A stretch of 36,945 bases of DNA from Rhodoferax sp. Lineage in GTDB: Bacteria > Pseudomonadota > Gammaproteobacteria > Burkholderiales > Burkholderiaceae_C. Made by a program: the position numbers and the translations under genes. The notes under the pieces were generated by a model. It searched no databases. It was not told where the DNA came from and worked only from the letters and a program-made list of their open reading frames with translations. Positions 1-8,416 of this stretch are shown here, piece by piece; position 1 is the first letter of the stretch, and every line of letters starts with the position of its first letter. The DNA lies in contig JAGOUM010000027.1 of the NCBI GenBank assembly GCA_018061265.1, forward strand, positions 1 to 36,945. Direction: 5' to 3'.

Positions 1-174
1 AATCCTGATGAGCGGCTCAACGCGGACCTCAAATACGCCCTGGGCTCCAGAGTGCAGGTGCGCACCAAAGACAAGCTCAAGGCTGTCACGCAAAACCACA
101 TGACCACCCTCGCCGCCAATCCGGCCAAAGTGGTGTCCTACTTTCAAGATCCGCGAGTCAAGTATGCCGCTTGA
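1..174 (+). mobile_element. IS630-type transposase, C-terminal fragment (5' end outside window)
   Basis: The frame is open from base 1 to a TGA at 172-174 and encodes 57 residues beginning NPDERLNADLK. This matches the C-terminal end of the DDE domain of IS630-family transposases, where the last catalytic acid sits in a PELNPxE-type motif. The beginning lies outside the window, so I cannot tell whether the element is intact. It is the first of two unrelated transposase pieces abutting the left edge of the hydrogenase genes, which suggests repeated insertion there. Family assignment is from remembered similarity. Confidence 0.75.
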
Positions 175-217
175 CGTTCATTACTTTGTTGCCGGGTGAA
201 TAGTTTCATTCAGCCAA

Positions 218-231: not shown

Positions 232-342
232 AACCCTGCCTCTGTGCGCTGGCGAACCCAATCGACATTTCGAGGGCTTATCTTGCCCTAGTTTTCCGGA
301 CTCATTAGCTAAAGGAAAATTTCAGACATTGGAGAAGACGAA

Positions 343-621
343 ATGAGCAAGAGAAACGATGGACAAGCCCGGGGCAAATATACGCTGGAATTCAAGCTTG
401 AGGCAGTGCGCCTGGTCAAAGGCGGTCAAGCCGCCGCTGTGACGGCCAAGGTGCTGGGCATACCGAATCAGACACCGGACAACTGGGTGCGACTGAGCAA
501 CAAAGGACAACTCAAAGGTGCAGGTGACAAACCCGTCTCGCCTGAGCAAATGGAGCTGGCGCGCCTGCGTGCCCAACTGGCCCGTGTGACGATGGAGCGC
601 GACATCCTAAAAAAAATGTGC
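343..621 (+). pseudogene. IS3-family transposase OrfA, truncated at its 3' end
   Basis: The ORF starts at ATG 343 and shows the usual OrfA layout: an N-terminal helix-turn-helix (FKLEAVRLVKGG, then TAKVLGIPNQTPDNWVR) followed by a leucine-zipper-like stretch ending MERDILKK near residue 91. Intact relatives continue with roughly KATAYFAKES and then need a frameshift into OrfB. Here the homology ends after DILKK, and the same frame continues into rubredoxin sequence. The catalytic OrfB is absent, so the element cannot move on its own. The exact break, somewhere in 610-640, cannot be fixed from one sequence. Confidence 0.75.
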
Positions 622-723
622 AAAGAACTGGTGGCACGCGGCACTCCTTTTGCCGACCTGCCAGCTCATTGGCGTTTCCCGCAATGTGTTAGCGCAGCCG
701 ACCAGTTCATGGTGGTGCTGTGA
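622..723 (+). pseudogene. hupI: Remnant of hydrogenase-associated rubredoxin HupI
   Basis: From about 622 the frame reads GTPFADLPAHWRFPQC, then AADQFMV, to a TGA at 721-723. This is the C-terminal third of the rubredoxins encoded in uptake-hydrogenase operons, whose consensus is GTPF-DLP-W-CP-C---K-QF. The N-terminal CxxC knuckle has been lost to the IS3-type fragment. The first Cys of the second pair is Phe (TTC at 676-678 where TGC is expected), so even this half could not bind iron normally. The stop overlaps the GTG start of the next gene as GTGA, the tight coupling typical of hupI-hupJ. A chimeric 126-residue OrfA-rubredoxin product could be made but is unlikely to work. Confidence 0.75.
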
Positions 724-1265
724 ATGCTGGGACGACGAGCCCAATCGCTCAGCACGCGGATTACATGCTGAAACAGCGAGTGACTGTACTGGAGGCGCTG
801 TTTGACGACATTGCCAACACTCGCATGCAGGGTGTGCTGATCAAAAACCTGGCGCTCAAGGTTCAGGCTGTTGATTTTGCGCCGGTTCCTCAACAACCTG
901 ACATGATGCAGGGTGTGCTGATCACGCCATGGTTCATGAACCTGGTGCGCCTGCCGCTGCGCAATGCACCCGCCTCAGCCCAGGTGCTGGCAGAGCGCCA
1001 GAAGGCCACGCGCCAGGTTGGCAACACCGACTTTGAATTCATTGGCTCGTTCGAGGTGACAATCGGCGCTTTTGAAGTCTGCTCGCTGTATTCGCCCATA
1101 TTTTAATTTGCCGACCACGCCGCGGCAACGGCCACCGCGCAAGAGGTGTTGAACCAATTGCACCGGCCAACGCCCGAGCCCGCCAGAAGCGCACCTGCCG
1201 TGCCAAGTCGGCGTGGGTTTTTACTCGGCCGCAGTGCCGGTGGCTCTCCGGGTGCCCCGAAATGA
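720..1265 (+). pseudogene. hupJ: HupJ/HybE-type [NiFe]-hydrogenase assembly chaperone with in-frame stop
   Basis: The reading frame from GTG 720 encodes a HybE/HupJ-family protein. It shows RMQGV near the start, GVLITPWFMNLVRLPL in the middle, and FEFIGSFEVTIGAFEVCSLYSPIF before a TAA at 1104-1106. The same frame stays open after the stop and reads FADHAAATATAQEVLNQL, the expected C-terminal continuation, to a TGA at 1263-1265 that overlaps the hupK start as ATGA. Related proteins have Glu between F and FAD, so a GAA to TAA change is the simplest explanation. A protein ending at 1106 would lack about 50 residues. HybE-type proteins assist hydrogenase small- or large-subunit assembly. This copy is probably inactive unless the stop is read through or the truncated form suffices. 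Confidence 0.78.
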
Positions 1266-2365
1266 GCGGCTTTGGCGGTTTGAACGGCAGCTACACACTG
1301 CATCCAGGGCAGGTGCTCAGCATCACTGGTCATCGTCTAGTACTGGGTCAGGGCTTGCCGGCCCGACTGCTTCTTGGACAAAGTGGTGAACAGGTGGAGC
1401 GCACACTGGCCGCGCTGTTTACCCTGTGTTCCCACGCGCACCGGCGTGCGGCACGCATGGCGCTTAATGCAGCACGCCTGCCCGATCAGACGGCACTGCC
1501 CGAGCCGTCTGATCAGTGGCGGACGCTGGAGACCGCGCGCGACCATCTGCGCAGCATGGCGCTGGACTGGCCGCGTCAACTCGCGCTATTAAGTCAGTCC
1601 AGCCATAAAACCCAAGCGCCAAATTTGCCTCTAGCCGAGGATAGTATTGCGCTACACGCTATTGATAGTGGATTGTTGAACTGGCTCAAGGCTTGCCCGC
1701 TGCCCCTGATTCAACCCGCACAGGCGTTGACCGAAGCGCAAACGCAAGAGGCGCAAATGGCGCTGCGCACTTGGCTTAAAGAGCACGTGTTGCTTGAGCC
1801 CCTAGAAGACTGGCTGGCTCAACACCGTGCACCTGAGGCGCTAGCGCACTGGTGCCAAAGCCGGGCCGCCGACCTGGCACAAGACATTGCCACCCAAGCA
1901 GGATTTGCCCAATTCCCGACCTGGAAAGGCCAGTGCCGGGAAACCGGCCCTTGGACGCGCCTGCGCCATCGCGAATCGGCGACAAATGCCCAGGGCAATG
2001 CTGCGCCAAGCATCTGGACACGGCTGAGTTCGCGCTGGATGGAGCTGATGGAACTGGTCTTTCTTGCCACACAGCGCACTGGCAACGCAGCACTCGCAAG
2101 CGGCGCCCTGAACCTCGCCCCCGGCCAAGCCATCGCCTGGGTCGAGATGGCGCGCGGCCTATTGCTGCACTGGGTACAACTCGATGAGCACGGCAAAGTG
2201 GCCGACTACCGCGTCATCGCCCCCACCGAATGGAACTTTCACCCTGACGGAGCGCTGGCCCGCGCCGTGAGCGCTTTGCCCCCCGATGACACGGCTTCTG
2301 CATGGGTTTTGGCCGCTGCTTATGATGCGTGTGTCGAATGCCGCGTGGCGGTCAGCTCAACTTAG
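1262..2365 (+). CDS. hupK: HupK-type hydrogenase maturation protein
   Basis: This 367-residue protein resembles HupK, a degenerate relative of the hydrogenase large subunit thought to act as scaffold or chaperone for the Fe(CN)2CO centre. The motif LFTLCSHAHRRAA near residue 58 corresponds to the large-subunit L1 region, with only one of the two Cys kept. The C-terminal part (ARGLLLHWVQLDEHGKV, then APTEWNFHPDGALARA) mirrors the large-subunit segment before the distal cysteines. The start overlaps the hupJ stop, and hypB begins 24 bp downstream. Residues about 113-140 use unusually AT-rich codons and coincide with a dispersed repeat. HupK acts on membrane-bound uptake hydrogenases, whose structural genes are not in this window. 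Confidence 0.8.
   Translation: MSGFGGLNGSYTLHPGQVLSITGHRLVLGQGLPARLLLGQSGEQVERTLAALFTLCSHAHRRAARMALNAARLPDQTALPEPSDQWRTLETARDHLRSMALDWPRQLALLSQSSHKTQAPNLPLAEDSIALHAIDSGLLNWLKACPLPLIQPAQALTEAQTQEAQMALRTWLKEHVLLEPLEDWLAQHRAPEALAHWCQSRAADLAQDIATQAGFAQFPTWKGQCRETGPWTRLRHRESATNAQGNAAPSIWTRLSSRWMELMELVFLATQRTGNAALASGALNLAPGQAIAWVEMARGLLLHWVQLDEHGKVADYRVIAPTEWNFHPDGALARAVSALPPDDTASAWVLAAAYDACVECRVAVSST
1621..1670 (+). repeat. Dispersed CTCTAGCC/ATAGC-type repeat, copy inside hupK
   Basis: The stretch has CTCTAGCC, then TATTGCGCT, then GCTATTGATAG, the same order of cores seen in several gaps of this window. It lies inside an open coding frame (LPLAEDSIALHAIDSG), and its AT-rich codons stand out from the surrounding GC-rich gene. 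It is probably an in-frame insertion into a variable linker of HupK. Confidence 0.4.
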
Positions 2366-2389: not shown

Positions 2390-3337
2390 ATGTGCGTAGT
2401 TTGTGGATGCGGCAATACCGCTGATGCGTCGGGCACCCCGGGCGTGACCGTACAACCTGGCACCGGTGACCTGCACTTTGGCGCAGGTGCGGCCAAGGTA
2501 TCGGTGCCCGGCATGAGCCAGGAGCGTGCCATCAAGTTGGAGGCCGATGTGCTGGGTGCCAACAACGCCATTGCCGCTCAAAACCGTGCCCACTTTGCCT
2601 CGCATGGTGTGACCGCCTACAACTTGGTCTCCAGCCCAGGATCAGGCAAAACCACGCTGCTGTGCGCCACCATCGAAGCCCTGCGTCAACGCCAGCCCGA
2701 GCTGGCCGTGGCGGTGATCGAGGGTGACCAGCAAACCAGCTTTGATGCCGATCGCATCCGTGCCACCGGTGCACCCGCGATTCAGGTCAACACCGGCAAA
2801 GGCTGCCATCTGGACGCGCCCATGGTGGCGCAGGCGTTTTCCAGACTGGATTTGCATGCCAGCGGCCACCACCATGATCATGGTGGCCACGGCCATGTCC
2901 ACAGCCACCCGCACGAGCATGCCCACGAAAAGCAGGCGTTGTTGTTTATCGAAAACGTTGGCAACCTGGTCTGCCCGGCGATGTGGGACCTTGGTGAGAA
3001 GGCCAAAGTAGCGATCCTCTCGGTCACCGAGGGTGAGGACAAGCCGCTGAAATATCCCGACATGTTTGCCGCCTCCAAATTGATGGTCTTGAACAAGATC
3101 GATCTGCTGCCGCATGTGTCGTTTAACGTGACGCGCTGCAAGGAGTTTGCGCACCGCGTCAACCCGGGCATTGAGATTCTGGAGCTGTCGGCCACCACGG
3201 GTCAGGGCATGGGCGCTTGGTTGGACTGGTTGCTGGCGGAGCCGTCTGCAGCAGCGGCGGTCAACGCTGATCCGGTGGCGGCGCGGATTGCGGCATTGGA
3301 GGCTGAGCTGGCGCAGTTGCGGGCGCTGCCGGCTTGA
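2390..3337 (+). CDS. hypB: HypB, nickel-binding GTPase for hydrogenase maturation
   Basis: HypB hydrolyses GTP to drive nickel insertion into the [NiFe] large subunit, normally with HypA. This 315-residue protein starts with the CxxCGC metal motif (Cys2, Cys5, Cys7). It carries a P-loop SSPGSGKTT at about 81-89, VIEGDQQT at 109-116, the metal and switch region [10 protein letters not shown] at 134-143, [12 protein letters not shown] at 186-197 and NKID at 235-238. Oddly, the His-rich nickel-storage stretch sits inside the G domain at about 156-179, just before the [11 protein letters not shown] strand, instead of near the N terminus. The RBS is AAGGAAG, a few bases upstream of the start. hypA, its usual upstream neighbour, is missing. 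Confidence 0.95.
2855..2926 (+). other. Internal His-rich loop of HypB
   Basis: Codons 156-179 of hypB encode 12 His in 24 residues ([19 protein letters not shown] and so on). In most His-rich HypB proteins the cluster lies between the N-terminal Cys motif and the G domain. Here that region (residues 8-45) has only one His, and the cluster sits between the helix [10 protein letters not shown] and the strand [10 protein letters not shown]. The role is inferred to be nickel storage or buffering. Confidence 0.75.
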
Positions 3338-3753: not shown

Positions 3754-4881
3754 ATGGCCCTGATCCTGGCTTTCGGCGCTTTCCTGAAAAACACCGCCTG
3801 CTTGTTTGACACGCAGGCGCCTGAAGATGTGCGCTGGTCCAGCGTCCACGGCGACCTGTCCGACCCGGCGGCCTGCGTTGCCCTGCGCGAATCAGTGACA
3901 CAGCTGATGGCGCAAACGCACAGCCCCATCGCCGCCGTCGCGCACGATCTGCACCCCGACTTTTTCAGCACCCATCTGGCGCTGCAAACCGCCGCCGATC
4001 TACAGGTGCCTGCCATCGCGGTGCAGCACCACCACGCGCATGTTGCCGCTGTCGTGGCCGAACACGGTTTGAACCAGCCGGTGCTCGGCCTGGCGCTGGA
4101 CGGTGTCGGACTGGGCAGCGACGGCCTAGCCTGGGGCGGGGAATTGCTGCGTGTTGACACTGGCGGGTTTAACCGGCTGGCGCATCTGCAACCGCTGGCC
4201 TTGCCCGGTGGCGATGTGGCCGCGCGCGAACCCTGGCGCATGGCTGCTGCTGTGTTGCACGCGCTTGGGGCCACCGATCAAATCTTGCCACGCTTTGGCC
4301 CGGTGGTGGGCGAGCAAGCCGCCAAAACCATCACCACCATGCTAGCGCGTAACCTGAATTGCCCGCTGACCACTGCGGCTGGACGCTGGTTTGATGCGGT
4401 GTCGGGGCTGCTAGGTTTGTGTGTGCGGCAAGAATTTGAGGCGCAGGCGGCCATCGCGTTGGAGGTTGCCACCGCGCGCCACCTGCAAATCCATGGGAGC
4501 ACGACAGTCAACACCCGTCTGTGGAACATCACCGCCGATGGCGTGGTTGACCTGCGCCCCTGGCTGCAAGAGCACCTGCTAAAGGTGGACACACACAACC
4601 CCGCCGTCGTCGATGAAGCCGCGCTTAGCTTTCACCTGACCCTGGCTGATGCCCTGAGCCAGCACACGACTGCCCTGGCACGCGCCCAAAAGATCACCGA
4701 CGTGGCGCTGGGCGGTGGCTGCTTCTTCAACCTCATCCTGAAAGAGGCCATCGTCTCGCAGCTGGAGGCCGCAGGTTTGAATGTGTTGCAAACCCGAAGC
4801 CTGTCATGCGGCGACGCCGGACTGGCGTTGGGGCAGGCCTGGGTGGCTTGTTCCAGCCTGCCTGTGAGCCTTGACCTGTAA
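3754..4881 (+). CDS. hypF: Short-form HypF carbamoyltransferase (Kae1-like domain only)
   Basis: HypF makes the thiocarboxamide on the C-terminal Cys of HypE from carbamoyl phosphate, the source of the CN ligands. Full-length proteins are about 750-800 residues. This one has 375 and covers only the C-terminal Kae1/YgjD-like half. Visible motifs are GAFLKNTACLF at 8-18, the metal-binding HHHAH near 93-97, LALDGVGLGSDGLAWGGELL and GGGCFFN near the end. The acylphosphatase, zinc-finger and YrdC-like parts are absent, and the 416-bp gap upstream holds no trace of them. Ralstonia eutropha HypF1 is, from memory, a naturally short functional form in the same gene order, so a native short form is as likely as truncation. 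The stop lies inside the brnT operator. Confidence 0.88.
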   Translation: MALILAFGAFLKNTACLFDTQAPEDVRWSSVHGDLSDPAACVALRESVTQLMAQTHSPIAAVAHDLHPDFFSTHLALQTAADLQVPAIAVQHHHAHVAAVVAEHGLNQPVLGLALDGVGLGSDGLAWGGELLRVDTGGFNRLAHLQPLALPGGDVAAREPWRMAAAVLHALGATDQILPRFGPVVGEQAAKTITTMLARNLNCPLTTAAGRWFDAVSGLLGLCVRQEFEAQAAIALEVATARHLQIHGSTTVNTRLWNITADGVVDLRPWLQEHLLKVDTHNPAVVDEAALSFHLTLADALSQHTTALARAQKITDVALGGGCFFNLILKEAIVSQLEAAGLNVLQTRSLSCGDAGLALGQAWVACSSLPVSLDL

Positions 4882-4899: not shown

Positions 4900-4906
4900 T
4901 GAAACG

Positions 4907-5191
4907 ATGAATGCACTTCACTTTGAATGGGATGAGGCAAAAGCCAGTGCCAACCTCAAGAAACACGGAGTTGGCTTTGACGAAGCAAAGTCTGTCTTTC
5001 TGGACGATCATGCTAAGTTGATCCCCGATCCGGATCACTCCATTGATGAAGAGCGCTTCGTTCTATTGGGATATAGCTCAATCTTGAAGCTTCTTGTGGT
5101 CTGTCATTGCTATCGTGCAGAAGGTCGGGTGATCCGCATCATCTCAGCGCGAAAGGCAACACGACAAGAAACGCAAATTTACGAGAGGTGA
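4907..5191 (+). CDS. brnT: BrnT-family ribonuclease toxin
   Basis: The 94-residue protein has the BrnT signature from FEWDEAKASANLKKHGVGFDEA at the N terminus through LLVVCHCYRAEGRVIRIISARKATRQE at the C terminus. BrnT is a RelE-fold ribonuclease that slows translation under stress and is neutralised by BrnA. ATG 4907 is chosen over an in-frame TTG at 4871, because the family begins at this point and the TTG lies in the promoter. brnA follows six bases after the stop. Codon use and GC content are lower than in the surrounding hyp genes, consistent with acquisition by transfer into the maturation operon. Confidence 0.88.
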   Translation: MNALHFEWDEAKASANLKKHGVGFDEAKSVFLDDHAKLIPDPDHSIDEERFVLLGYSSILKLLVVCHCYRAEGRVIRIISARKATRQETQIYER

Positions 5192-5197
5192 TAAGCC

Positions 5198-5407
5198 ATG
5201 CGTGCCGAATACGATTTTTCCAAAGCAGTGAAGAACCCTTACGCTGCGCAGCTCAAAAAGCAGATCACCATTCGTTTGGATGAAGAGAGCCTCAGCTATT
5301 TCAAAAGCATTTCTGCCGATGTCGGCATTCCGTACCAAAGTCTCATCAATCTGTATCTCAGGGATTGCGCAACGTCCAATCGCAAACTCAATCTGGAGTG
5401 GAAATGA
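5198..5407 (+). CDS. brnA: BrnA-family antitoxin
   Basis: The 69-residue protein starts MRAEYDFSKAVKNPY and contains a ribbon-helix-helix core, QITIRLDEESLSYFKSI, followed by YQSLINLYLRDC. This is the usual BrnA layout of an N-terminal toxin-wrapping segment and a DNA-binding C-terminal part. The order toxin then antitoxin is normal for BrnTA. GAGAGGTGA, overlapping the brnT stop, serves as RBS. The protein should bind BrnT and the palindrome upstream of brnT. Confidence 0.85.
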   Translation: MRAEYDFSKAVKNPYAAQLKKQITIRLDEESLSYFKSISADVGIPYQSLINLYLRDCATSNRKLNLEWK

Positions 5408-5603
5408 TGTTGAACTATTTCGTTGAGCTGTGTCGGGCAGGTCGGCGCTTTGCGATGTCGGATTTCCAGCGTGGCTTCTCCGCTCCCGAAAGGGCGGGCA
5501 CAGGCTACAGCCTCCATCAGGTGGGGCGCGACAGAATTTCACATCAAAATCTTGCTCTAGCTCCTCTGGAATAAGTGCAGGCAGCTATTTTATTGATAGC
5601 ACA
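5408..5603. other. Non-coding or decayed stretch after brnA
   Basis: Short frames cross this stretch but none has a recognisable product or RBS. Its last 55 bases are a dispersed repeat copy (5546-5600). I see no other structure. Confidence 0.4.
5546..5600 (+). repeat. Dispersed CTCTAGC/ATAGC-type repeat, copy before the VOC remnant
   Basis: The sequence has TTGCTCTAGC, then AATAAGTGCAG, then GCTATTTTATTGATAGC, whose GCTAT and ATAGC arms form a small hairpin. It ends three bases before the ATG of the glyoxalase-family remnant. The core order matches the other copies. Confidence 0.5.
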
Positions 5604-5860
5604 ATGATGCCAACCCTGAAGATCACTGAAATCAAAGCGTTTGTTCCCTCAAAGGACTTCGAGCTTTCCAAGCAGTTCTACAAGGATCTTGGATTCATGA
5701 TGGCCTCTGAAGGGGGTGGCATCATTTGCAAAAGAGTGGCGTGCTCACAAAGTACGGGGTCAGAGTCACGGCGTTGGAAGACCAGTCGTGGCGTATGCGG
5801 GACTTCTGCCTCTTCGATCCGTCGGGTGTTCAATGGCGCATTGGGCAGAATACCGACTAA
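5604..5860 (+). pseudogene. Glyoxalase/VOC-family protein, internally deleted and frameshifted
   Basis: From ATG 5604/5607 the frame encodes a normal VOC-family N terminus (KITEIKAFVPSKDFELSKQF, then GFMMASEGGGI) up to about 5730. From about 5741, in another frame, comes a matching C terminus (VLTKYGVRVTALEDQSWRMR, then FDPSGVQWRIGQNTD) ending TAA 5858-5860. Together they give about 83 residues against 120-130 for the family, so roughly 40 residues are deleted along with the frame. The metal-binding or substrate residues of the middle strands are gone. It is unrelated to hydrogenase maturation and probably arrived with brnTA. Confidence 0.75.
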
Positions 5861-5967
5861 ATCGGAATTGAATCCCGTGTTACCCATAACAACCATCCCG
5901 TCCTTCCAACGGACCGACTCGGTGGCCGCTCAATTCCAGCTTTGAATACATCCAAAAGGACCCCATC

Positions 5968-6207
5968 ATGTGCCTAGCCCTCCCCGCCCGTGTGGTGGAA
6001 CTGTTACCCAATCAACGTGCCGTGGTCGATCTGGGTGGCGTGCGCAAAGAAGTGTCGATTGACCTGGTCGATGACGCGCAGGTGGATGACTACGTCATCA
6101 TCCATGTCGGTTATGCCATCGGAAGGATTGACCCCGAAGAGGCGGCGCGCACGCTGGCGCTGTTTGCCGAGCTTTCTGAGGCTCAAAATGCCACCCAGCC
6201 CTTATAG
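5968..6207 (+). CDS. hypC: HypC hydrogenase maturation chaperone
   Basis: The 79-residue protein begins MCLALPARVVEL, with the essential Cys2 that remains after start-Met removal. It continues as the small beta-barrel HypC/HybG fold (VDLGGVRKEVSIDLV, then DYVIIHVGYAIGRIDPEEA). HypC partners HypD to build the Fe(CN)2CO unit and carries it to the large-subunit precursor. hypD follows 17 bp downstream. The presumed maturation operon is interrupted upstream by brnTA and the VOC remnant. Confidence 0.95.
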   Translation: MCLALPARVVELLPNQRAVVDLGGVRKEVSIDLVDDAQVDDYVIIHVGYAIGRIDPEEAARTLALFAELSEAQNATQPL

Positions 6208-6224
6208 ACATTGCACGTGCAGCT

Positions 6225-7364
6225 ATGAAATACATTGACGAATTTCGCGACGGCGACGCTGCCCGGCGGGTTGCTGCCACCATCGCCGCCGAGGCCCGGC
6301 CGGATGTGGCCTACAACTTCATGGAGTTCTGCGGTGGCCACACGCACGCCATTTCGCGCTACGGCATCAGTGGCATGTTGCCCGCCAATGTGCGCATGAT
6401 CCACGGCCCGGGTTGCCCGGTGTGTGTGCTGCCGATTGGCCGCATCGACCTGGCTATTTCGTTGGCGTTGGAGCGGGGCGTGATGCTGTGCACTTACGGT
6501 GACACCATGCGCGTGCCGGCATCCGACAACCTGTCGCTGATCAAGGCCAAGGCGCGCGGGGCCGACATCCGTATGGTGTATTCCGCGGCTGACGCGCTGA
6601 AACTGGCCGAACAAAATCCGGAGCGCGAAGTGGTGTTTTTTGCCATTGGTTTTGAGACCACCACGCCACCCACCGCGCTGGTGCTGCGCGAGGCACAGGC
6701 GCGCAACGTGTCCAACTTCAGCGTGCTGTGCTGCCATGTGCTGACGCCTGCGGCCATCACCCACCTGCTGGAGTCGGCGCAGGCGCGTGAAATGGGGGCG
6801 GTGCCGATTGACGGCTTTATCGGCCCGGCGCATGTCAGCATCATCATTGGCTCTGAGCCCTATGTGCACTTCGCCAAGACTTACCACAAGCCGGTGGTGA
6901 TCACCGGCTTTGAGCCACTGGATGTGATGCAGGGCATTTTGATGCTGATGCGCCAGATGAACAGTGGCCGCGCCGAGGTCGAAAACGAGTTCTCACGCGT
7001 CGTCACGCCCACCGGCAACCAGGCGGCACAAAAAGTCATGGCGCAGGTGTTTGAATTGCGCCAAAGTTTTGAGTGGCGCGGCCTGGGCGAAGTGCCCCAC
7101 AGCGCCCTGAAAATCCGCCCCGAGCTGGCCGCCTGGGACGCTGAAGTCAAGTTTGACCTGACCTATGCCAGCGTGCCCGACCATAAACAGTGTGAATGTG
7201 GCACCATTCTGCGTGGCATCAAGCGCCCGGCCGATTGCAAGCTCTTTGGCACCGTCTGCACGCCCGAGACGCCGATGGGCTCGTGCATGGTGTCCAACGA
7301 AGGCGCGTGCGCCGCACATTATTCTTATGGTCGGTTTCAGGATATTGAGTTGGTAACAGCATGA
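6225..7364 (+). CDS. hypD: HypD hydrogenase maturation iron-sulfur protein
   Basis: HypD is the scaffold on which iron receives two cyanides from HypE and one CO. The 379-residue protein is the usual length. It has FCGGHTH with Cys36, GPGCPVC with Cys64 and Cys67, and GFETTTPP. The C-terminal cysteine cluster for the [4Fe-4S] centre follows (QCECGTILRG, then PADCKLFGTVCTP, then GSCMVSNEGACAAHY). All expected catalytic cysteines are present. The stop overlaps the hypE start as ATGA. Confidence 0.96.
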   Translation: MKYIDEFRDGDAARRVAATIAAEARPDVAYNFMEFCGGHTHAISRYGISGMLPANVRMIHGPGCPVCVLPIGRIDLAISLALERGVMLCTYGDTMRVPASDNLSLIKAKARGADIRMVYSAADALKLAEQNPEREVVFFAIGFETTTPPTALVLREAQARNVSNFSVLCCHVLTPAAITHLLESAQAREMGAVPIDGFIGPAHVSIIIGSEPYVHFAKTYHKPVVITGFEPLDVMQGILMLMRQMNSGRAEVENEFSRVVTPTGNQAAQKVMAQVFELRQSFEWRGLGEVPHSALKIRPELAAWDAEVKFDLTYASVPDHKQCECGTILRGIKRPADCKLFGTVCTPETPMGSCMVSNEGACAAHYSYGRFQDIELVTA

Positions 7365-8416
7365 CAGCCAAGAAAAATTACCTGCGTCCGATTGACTTCA
7401 AACACGGACGCATCGACATGACGCACGGCGCCGGTGGCCGCGCAGCCGCGCAACTGATCGACGAACTGTTTGCCGTCGCGTTTGACAACGAATATCTGCG
7501 CCAGGGCCACGACGGCGCCCTGCTGCCGCAGCCGCAGGGCCGGCTCGTGATGGCCACCGACGGCCATGTGATCTCGCCACTGTTTTTCCCCGGTGGTGAC
7601 ATTGGCTGCCTGTCGGTGCACGGCACGGTCAACGACGTGGCCATGTCGGGTGCGGTGCCTCTGTACCTGGCAGCCAGCTTCATTATTGAAGAAGGTTACC
7701 CGCTGGCGAACCTCAAACGCATTGTCGAGTCGATGGCCGCCGCCTCCCGTGAGGCTGGTGTCCCAGTCGTCACCGGCGACACCAAGGTGGTCGAAAAAGG
7801 CAAGGGCGATGGTGTCTTCATCAGCACCACCGGGGTTGGTGTGGTGCCCGACGGCATGTTGATTGACGGTCGCCAAGCCAAGCCAGGGGATGCGATTCTG
7901 GTCTCAGGCACTTTGGGCGAGCACGGCGTGGCGGTGATGTCGTTGCGCGAGTCACTGGAATTCGAGACCGCCATCATCTCCGACACCGCCGCGCTGCACA
8001 CGCTGGTGCAGGCCATGCTCGCAGCGCTACCCAATCCAGGCGATTTGCATGTGCTGCGCGACCCCACCCGCGGGGGTCTGGCCACCTCGTTGAACGAAAT
8101 CGCTCGCCAGTCTCAGGTCGGCATGAGTCTGGTCGAAGCCGACATCCCAGTGCTGCCGCAGGTTGAAGCCGCGTGCGAGCTGCTGGGCCTGGACCCGCTG
8201 TATGTGGCCAATGAAGGCAAGCTGATTGCCATCTGCGCGCCCGAGGTGGCTGACAGCCTGCTGGCCGCCATGCGCGCCCACCCGCTGGGGGCAGCGGCCA
8301 AACGCATCGGCACGGTGACGGCCGATGACAACTGCTTTGTGCAAATGGCCACACGCTTTGGCGGACGGAGGGTGGTGGACTGGCCCAGCGGCGAGCAGTT
8401 GCCGCGCATTTGCTAA
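7361..8416 (+). CDS. hypE: HypE carbamoyl dehydratase
   Basis: HypE is a PurM-like ATPase that dehydrates the thiocarboxamide on its own C-terminal Cys to thiocyanate and passes cyanide to HypC-HypD iron. The 351-residue protein shows MTHGAGGRAAAQLI at 20-33, VHGTVNDVAMSGA, VVTGDTKVVEKG, DPTRGGLATSLNEIA and NEGKL. It ends in the obligatory PRIC with Cys351. It looks fully functional and overlaps hypD by four bases. Confidence 0.96.
   Translation: MTAKKNYLRPIDFKHGRIDMTHGAGGRAAAQLIDELFAVAFDNEYLRQGHDGALLPQPQGRLVMATDGHVISPLFFPGGDIGCLSVHGTVNDVAMSGAVPLYLAASFIIEEGYPLANLKRIVESMAAASREAGVPVVTGDTKVVEKGKGDGVFISTTGVGVVPDGMLIDGRQAKPGDAILVSGTLGEHGVAVMSLRESLEFETAIISDTAALHTLVQAMLAALPNPGDLHVLRDPTRGGLATSLNEIARQSQVGMSLVEADIPVLPQVEAACELLGLDPLYVANEGKLIAICAPEVADSLLAAMRAHPLGAAAKRIGTVTADDNCFVQMATRFGGRRVVDWPSGEQLPRIC

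Follow-up and report, generated by a model that had tools for sequence, protein, structure and literature searches.

An in-frame fusion of IS3 remnants and the end of hupI at the head of a hup-hyp gene cluster in Rhodoferax sp.

Rubredoxins bind iron via two CxxC knuckles, and the fusion of OrfA and OrfB of IS3-family elements normally requires a frameshift. Regarding the hydrogenase accessory proteins, a passage of one published account describes HupK/HoxV as a scaffold binding the precursor of the cofactor and assigns it to gene clusters of bacteria whose hydrogenase is expressed in the presence of oxygen (PMC3534401), and according to a passage of another the HypF1 protein of Cupriavidus necator has one of three canonical domains (PMC9100943). 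Our literature search returned no paper on point for IS-linked hup loss, judged by title, and none joining hupI, rubredoxin, hydrogenase and hupK.

The DNA analyzed here, referred to as the window, is the whole 36,945-nucleotide stretch of one Rhodoferax sp. contig (JAGOUM010000027.1, our C93); the assembly comprises 261 contigs at 89.5% completeness. The following features were recognized at its left end:

1 to 203, plus strand: end of an IS630-type element (3' end of the transposase gene, and right end), inside which the contig starts; contig C152 has a copy with 98.5% identity over 203 bp
204 to 277, no strand: stretch of 74 bp between two IS remnants, nearly matchless in the genus
278 to 615, plus strand: putative IS3 left end, and orfA up to its A-run, with the ATG at 343 and HTH_Tnp_1; 84% DNA identity over 318 bp to L043, the nearest IS copy
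616 to 642, plus strand: 27-bp interior piece of IS3 orfB (MCKELVARG), with DNA matches in G075, G013 and G101
643 to 723, plus strand: last third of hupI by PF00301 and by alignments to hupI genes of the genus, with a Cys-to-Phe change at 676-678
720 to 1262, plus strand: hupJ (HybE-type chaperone; PF11939, E 7.9e-26), broken by a TAA at 1104-1106 that is GAA in G002
1262 to 2365, plus strand: hupK, with 40 codons missing in frame near 1860
2390 to 3337, plus strand: hypB, intact (TIGR00073)
3754 to 4881, plus strand: short hypF, the C-terminal Kae1-like part alone, judged by profile ranges
5968 to 8416, plus strand: what we take, from a reading of the ORFs and not from a family search, to be hypC, hypD and hypE, intact

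The ORF at positions 343-723 (126 residues) is a three-part fossil with two joints. Residues 1-91 belong to IS3 OrfA, residues 92-100 (MCKELVARG) come from the interior of OrfB, and the remaining 26-27 residues are the final third of rubredoxin HupI. The original prediction of an in-frame fusion between IS3 OrfA and the last third of HupI was thus borne out by Pfam domains, alignment and synteny. It had also placed HupI straight after the OrfA ending MERDILKK, from residue 94; the HupI tail is real, but residues 92-100 match OrfB, which rules out a direct OrfA-to-HupI joint and sets the beginning of HupI at about residue 100. Pfam searches identified HTH_Tnp_1 at residues 9-80 (E 4e-9) and Rubredoxin PF00301 at residues 97-122 (profile positions 22-47 of 47), the latter above cut-off both in the whole ORF (E 1.1e-5) and in the tail alone (E 7.2e-7). 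The NCBIfam model transpos_IS3 matched residues 16-98 (profile 1-86 of 369, E 1.4e-13) with a score below its cut-off because just the first quarter of the model is present. The IS3 OrfA hallmark, a helix-turn-helix followed by an A-run, is present, and the OrfB catalytic core is absent, nine OrfB codons being left. The putative left end of the element was set at 278 by visual comparison with where related copies start; no inverted repeat of at least 14 bp was found in positions 1-800, and none was reported in two related IS copies either. No right end is visible because hupI directly follows the orfB piece.

By family, alignment and synteny, the tail of this ORF is assigned to HupI. Its alignment with HupI proteins of the genus and with the hup cluster of the relative G002 agrees with the prediction, the identity to G002 HupI being 76% over 29 residues. 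At the DNA level, positions 634-1880 align with hupI-hupJ-hupK of G002 over 1249 bp at 80% identity, so the rubredoxin match is not due to chance. The contrary assignment, that the tail belongs to IS3 OrfA relatives, was examined in 58 IS loci, and the tail was not found there. In 38 of the 58 the similarity to the ORF stops at residue 91, and in 52 no later than residue 93; the six matches extending to residues 101-117 are weak and, in several cases, gapped or run through stop codons. The tail alone (residues 100-126) gave a best E value of 0.13 against the same loci, which speaks against an origin of the tail in IS3 OrfA.

The predicted replacement of a metal ligand was confirmed as well: Phe112 (TTC, 676-678) stands at the first Cys of the second CxxC pair, and both pairs are present in all nine HupI proteins of the genus that were aligned. 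These proteins were obtained by searching 22 fetched relative loci and the window; twelve loci matched, which became nine genomes (G002, G004, G010, G022, G041, G044, G045, G075 and G084) after three duplicates were dropped. The other ten relative loci, including the hupK-carrying stretches of G007, G012 and G021, gave no HupI match. With the first pair missing and the second reduced to FxxC, one of the four iron-binding Cys residues is left, so the ORF is not expected to form a normal rubredoxin iron site.

The IS3 piece could be traced to its source in some detail. Searching positions 540-760 against 89 genomes of the genus gave separate DNA matches at about 612-646 in G075, G013 (three copies) and G101 (E 1.2e-5 to 6.9e-4), those of G075 and G013 being located a few hundred bases downstream of the orfA match on the same contig. 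In four of six IS copies examined by script the orfB motif lies at an identical distance; of the remaining two, L127 carries a variant and L125 gave no anchor. The orfB ATG is placed 275 bases after the ATGGAGCGC anchor in those four copies versus 24 in the window, so that 251 bases are missing. This deletion puts OrfA in frame with OrfB, and it is flanked by A-runs, a run seven bases long in orfA and a run five bases long, including the A of the orfB ATG, in G013 and G075. OrfB starts with MCKELVARG, MWKELVARG or MWKELLARG in the IS copies, and with MWKELLGRG in L127; the window peptide is identical to that of one G013 copy. Eleven distinct IS sequences were compared at the orfB site, and as they were picked by a pattern on the first bases, the later bases alone are informative. 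Base by base, five of these IS sequences agree well with the window up to about 642, and seven of eight hupI sequences do so from about 639 on. The joint between IS and hupI is located within about 634-643, where the two have a few bases in common, and the HupI part corresponds to residues 54/55-80 of the 80 of G002 HupI, plus the stop codon. Nowhere else in the assembly does the IS3 stretch have more than short, weak matches, which places the joint outside repeats.

Two of the genes that follow are also damaged. With the internal stop masked, the homology of hupJ runs past it to the normal end at 1262. All 16 of the other genus genomes aligned have the 40-residue stretch that is missing from hupK, and G037, of the same taxonomic order, has part of it (G011 and G033, which did not pass the script's cut-offs for length or E value, were left out of this count); the G002 counterpart of the stretch lies between imperfect direct repeats. 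A second HupK gap of 17 residues was dropped as a lesion, as that stretch varies in length. Compared with G002, Nei-Gojobori dN/dS ratios were 0.255 for hupJ, 0.299 for hupK and 0.215 for hypF, and low for hypB (0.063), hypC (0.106), hypD (0.055) and hypE (0.057); the Yang-Nielsen method gave 0.264, 0.481 and 0.268 for hupJ, hupK and hypF, and 0.064, 0.048 and 0.047 for hypB, hypD and hypE. Relative-rate tests, in which outgroup matches below 50% identity were dropped, showed no excess change on the window branch against G002 for hupJ (p 0.18-0.61 in four tests) or hupK (p 0.087 and 0.85). The sole value below 0.05 among 22 uncorrected tests was that of hypF, a gene that our account counts among those retained, with G010 as outgroup (p 0.024; 0.29 with G004). 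The decay of hupJ and hupK accordingly rests on the lesions and not on rates, and both genes may be less constrained everywhere.

Some smaller differences were observed along the hyp genes. The His-rich stretch of HypB (2830-2930) is shorter than that of G002, the proteins having 315 and 374 residues. The hypF counterpart of G002 is of the short type as well. Between hypF and hypC the window carries a BrnT/BrnA-type toxin-antitoxin pair at 4904-5407 (PF04365, E 4.5e-27; PF14384, E 3.3e-8), followed at 5430-5945 by a remnant that we named by eye as a glyoxalase-like gene, part of which matches a longer G002 ORF (L031 10222-10734) before the frame is lost; Pfam gave nothing for it at E 0.001. 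The same interval in G002 is shorter than 500 bp and mostly a glyoxalase-like ORF. Downstream of 8416, hypE is followed in the window by an ORF resembling, by eye, a mechanosensitive channel, and in G002 (L031 13567-15027) by an ORF like a response regulator and genes that probably encode a regulatory hydrogenase. The downstream side of the hup-hyp cluster thus seems to have been lost or moved too.

The presence of hupS and hupL elsewhere in the genome had been proposed as a check on the original prediction, and neither was found in the 89.5% complete assembly. PF14720, the HupS-type domain, gave no match in it; this family was found in 49 of the 89 genus genomes, a tally that mixes uptake-type and regulatory-type small subunits. 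PF00374 detected just HupK and a Hox-type large subunit on contig C234. The C234 matches were ruled out as HupL because this subunit follows hoxF-, hoxU- and hoxY-like ORFs, as HoxH does, and precedes a hoxW-like ORF (hoxFUYHW; the names rest on family knowledge, and Pfam supports those of the large and the small subunit); the third PF00374 match was HupK. The hypA gene is also on C234, beside the Hox genes. HupH gave no match in the assembly and was found in four of four relatives (G002, the genome of the query, G004, G010 and G022). Such absences should be read with the assembly in mind, since at 89.5% completeness and 261 contigs hup genes could be absent from the assembly alone. Indeed, the G002 contig starts inside hupL and its sole PF14720 match is regulatory-type, so a contig break can hide HupS. 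In G002, a large-subunit-like ORF at C19 16914 was dropped as HoxH, since the adjoining PF14720 match before it favours a regulatory pair (HupUV/HoxBC). The sole clear HypF of the Rhodoferax assembly is the short form; a weak HypF-profile match on contig C141 (15062-15622, L131; profile 191-376, E 9.4e-8), which covers another part of the profile than the short hypF, could be a YrdC/Sua5-type protein.

The most probable account, to which we give a probability of about 85%, is an IS-associated decay of the hup operon in which the hyp genes were kept for the Hox hydrogenase. An IS3-family element would once have been located in or beside the hup operon and would have lost the 251 bp that separated the A-run of orfA from an A-rich site in orfB. 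A second deletion would have fused orfB with the inside of hupI, at the cost of the IS right end and of the initial two thirds of hupI. Once the upstream hup genes had disappeared, the leftover hup-only genes would have decayed, as in the metal Cys of hupI, the stop in hupJ and the 40 codons of hupK. By contrast, hypB, F, C, D and E would have been kept because a second, NAD-linked hydrogenase (hoxFUYHW and hypA, on C234) still needs them. The damage to hupK fits the loss of an uptake hydrogenase, given the scaffold role described for HupK/HoxV in a passage of PMC3534401. That the locus marks the removal of upstream hydrogenase genes, as had been claimed, agrees with the failure to find HupS, HupL and HupH; the removal itself we infer from their absence in this incomplete assembly. 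The order of these events, the part of the IS in the upstream loss and the service of the hyp genes to Hox are likewise probable deductions from the arrangement. The mechanism is an ordinary one, since IS remnants, deletions at short repeats and pseudogene decay are events of a known kind.

An alternative is that the IS3 element was inserted after the hup loss and was for the most part a bystander in a pseudogene region that was already old. IS copies tend to gather in decaying regions, the sequence keeps no record of the order of events, and positions 204-276, to the left of the IS, match nothing informative (besides itself, one 26-bp match in G087 among the 89 genus genomes). Yet the IS fragment runs straight into the interior of hupI and has lost its own right end, which means that the IS took part in the last deletion at least, and we consider this course of events possible, though unlikely. 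An assembly or binning artefact, in which an IS fragment was misjoined to the hup contig, is considerably less probable. The assembly is fragmented and incomplete, the contig starts in a repeated IS630 copy and no match spans the joint in the other 88 genus genomes, at most nine candidates per genome having been scored at first look. The window and C152 copies of IS630 (for which the NCBIfam match is weak, E 0.061) diverge after position 203, and this repeated copy with a different flank explains the contig break; with the contig end 342 bp upstream of the ORF in such a copy, the extent of the upstream loss is something we infer and do not see as a whole deletion. Nevertheless, the DNA in which the joint lies is matched elsewhere in the assembly by short, weak stretches at most, there are two separate joints, both at shared bases and with a few tens of bases between them, and hupJ and hupK carry independent lesions downstream, all of which argue for a true genomic arrangement.

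We also considered whether the fusion does anything. The ORF is open, in frame and overlaps hupJ as the intact hupI does in G002, so it might be read as a working protein in which a DNA-binding OrfA has gained a new tail; alternatively, the IS remnant might be read as a promoter for the hyp genes. However, OrfB is gone, one of the four metal Cys is left, hupJ and hupK just downstream are damaged, and a simple sigma-70 scan of positions 1-2600 gave nothing above shuffles, with one promoter-like site, on the minus strand, against 0.7 expected; such a role is therefore extremely improbable. That the fusion ORF or the IS remnant was kept for some purpose, for example starting hyp transcription or translation after loss of the hup promoter, as a recycled control element, is hardly more plausible. 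Under the preferred reading of an IS-associated hup decay, no function of the chimeric ORF is expected. The locus would then illustrate one route by which an uptake hydrogenase is lost and shared maturation genes are retained, and how a chimeric ORF of transposase and accessory gene may lead annotation astray.

Compared with HupI of uptake [NiFe]-hydrogenase operons, the tail of the ORF shares the G002 identity given above and its place before hupJ-hupK with a matching short hupJ overlap, but it is without the first two thirds of the protein and the first Cys pair, and Phe opens the second pair. Relative to IS3-family OrfA/OrfB, as modelled in transpos_IS3, the window keeps OrfA to the A-run and nine OrfB residues, and differs in having lost the internal 251 bp and all that lies past the ninth kept OrfB codon, right end included. 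The window shows the same gene order as the hup-hyp cluster of G002, hupI-hupJ-hupK-hypB-hypF-hypC-hypD-hypE, whereas everything upstream of the hupI end and the response-regulator-like ORF after hypE are missing, and a BrnT/BrnA pair follows hypF. Finally, the HypF of the window resembles HypF1 of C. necator, as described in a passage of PMC9100943, in being short and having, as judged from profile ranges alone, one canonical domain.
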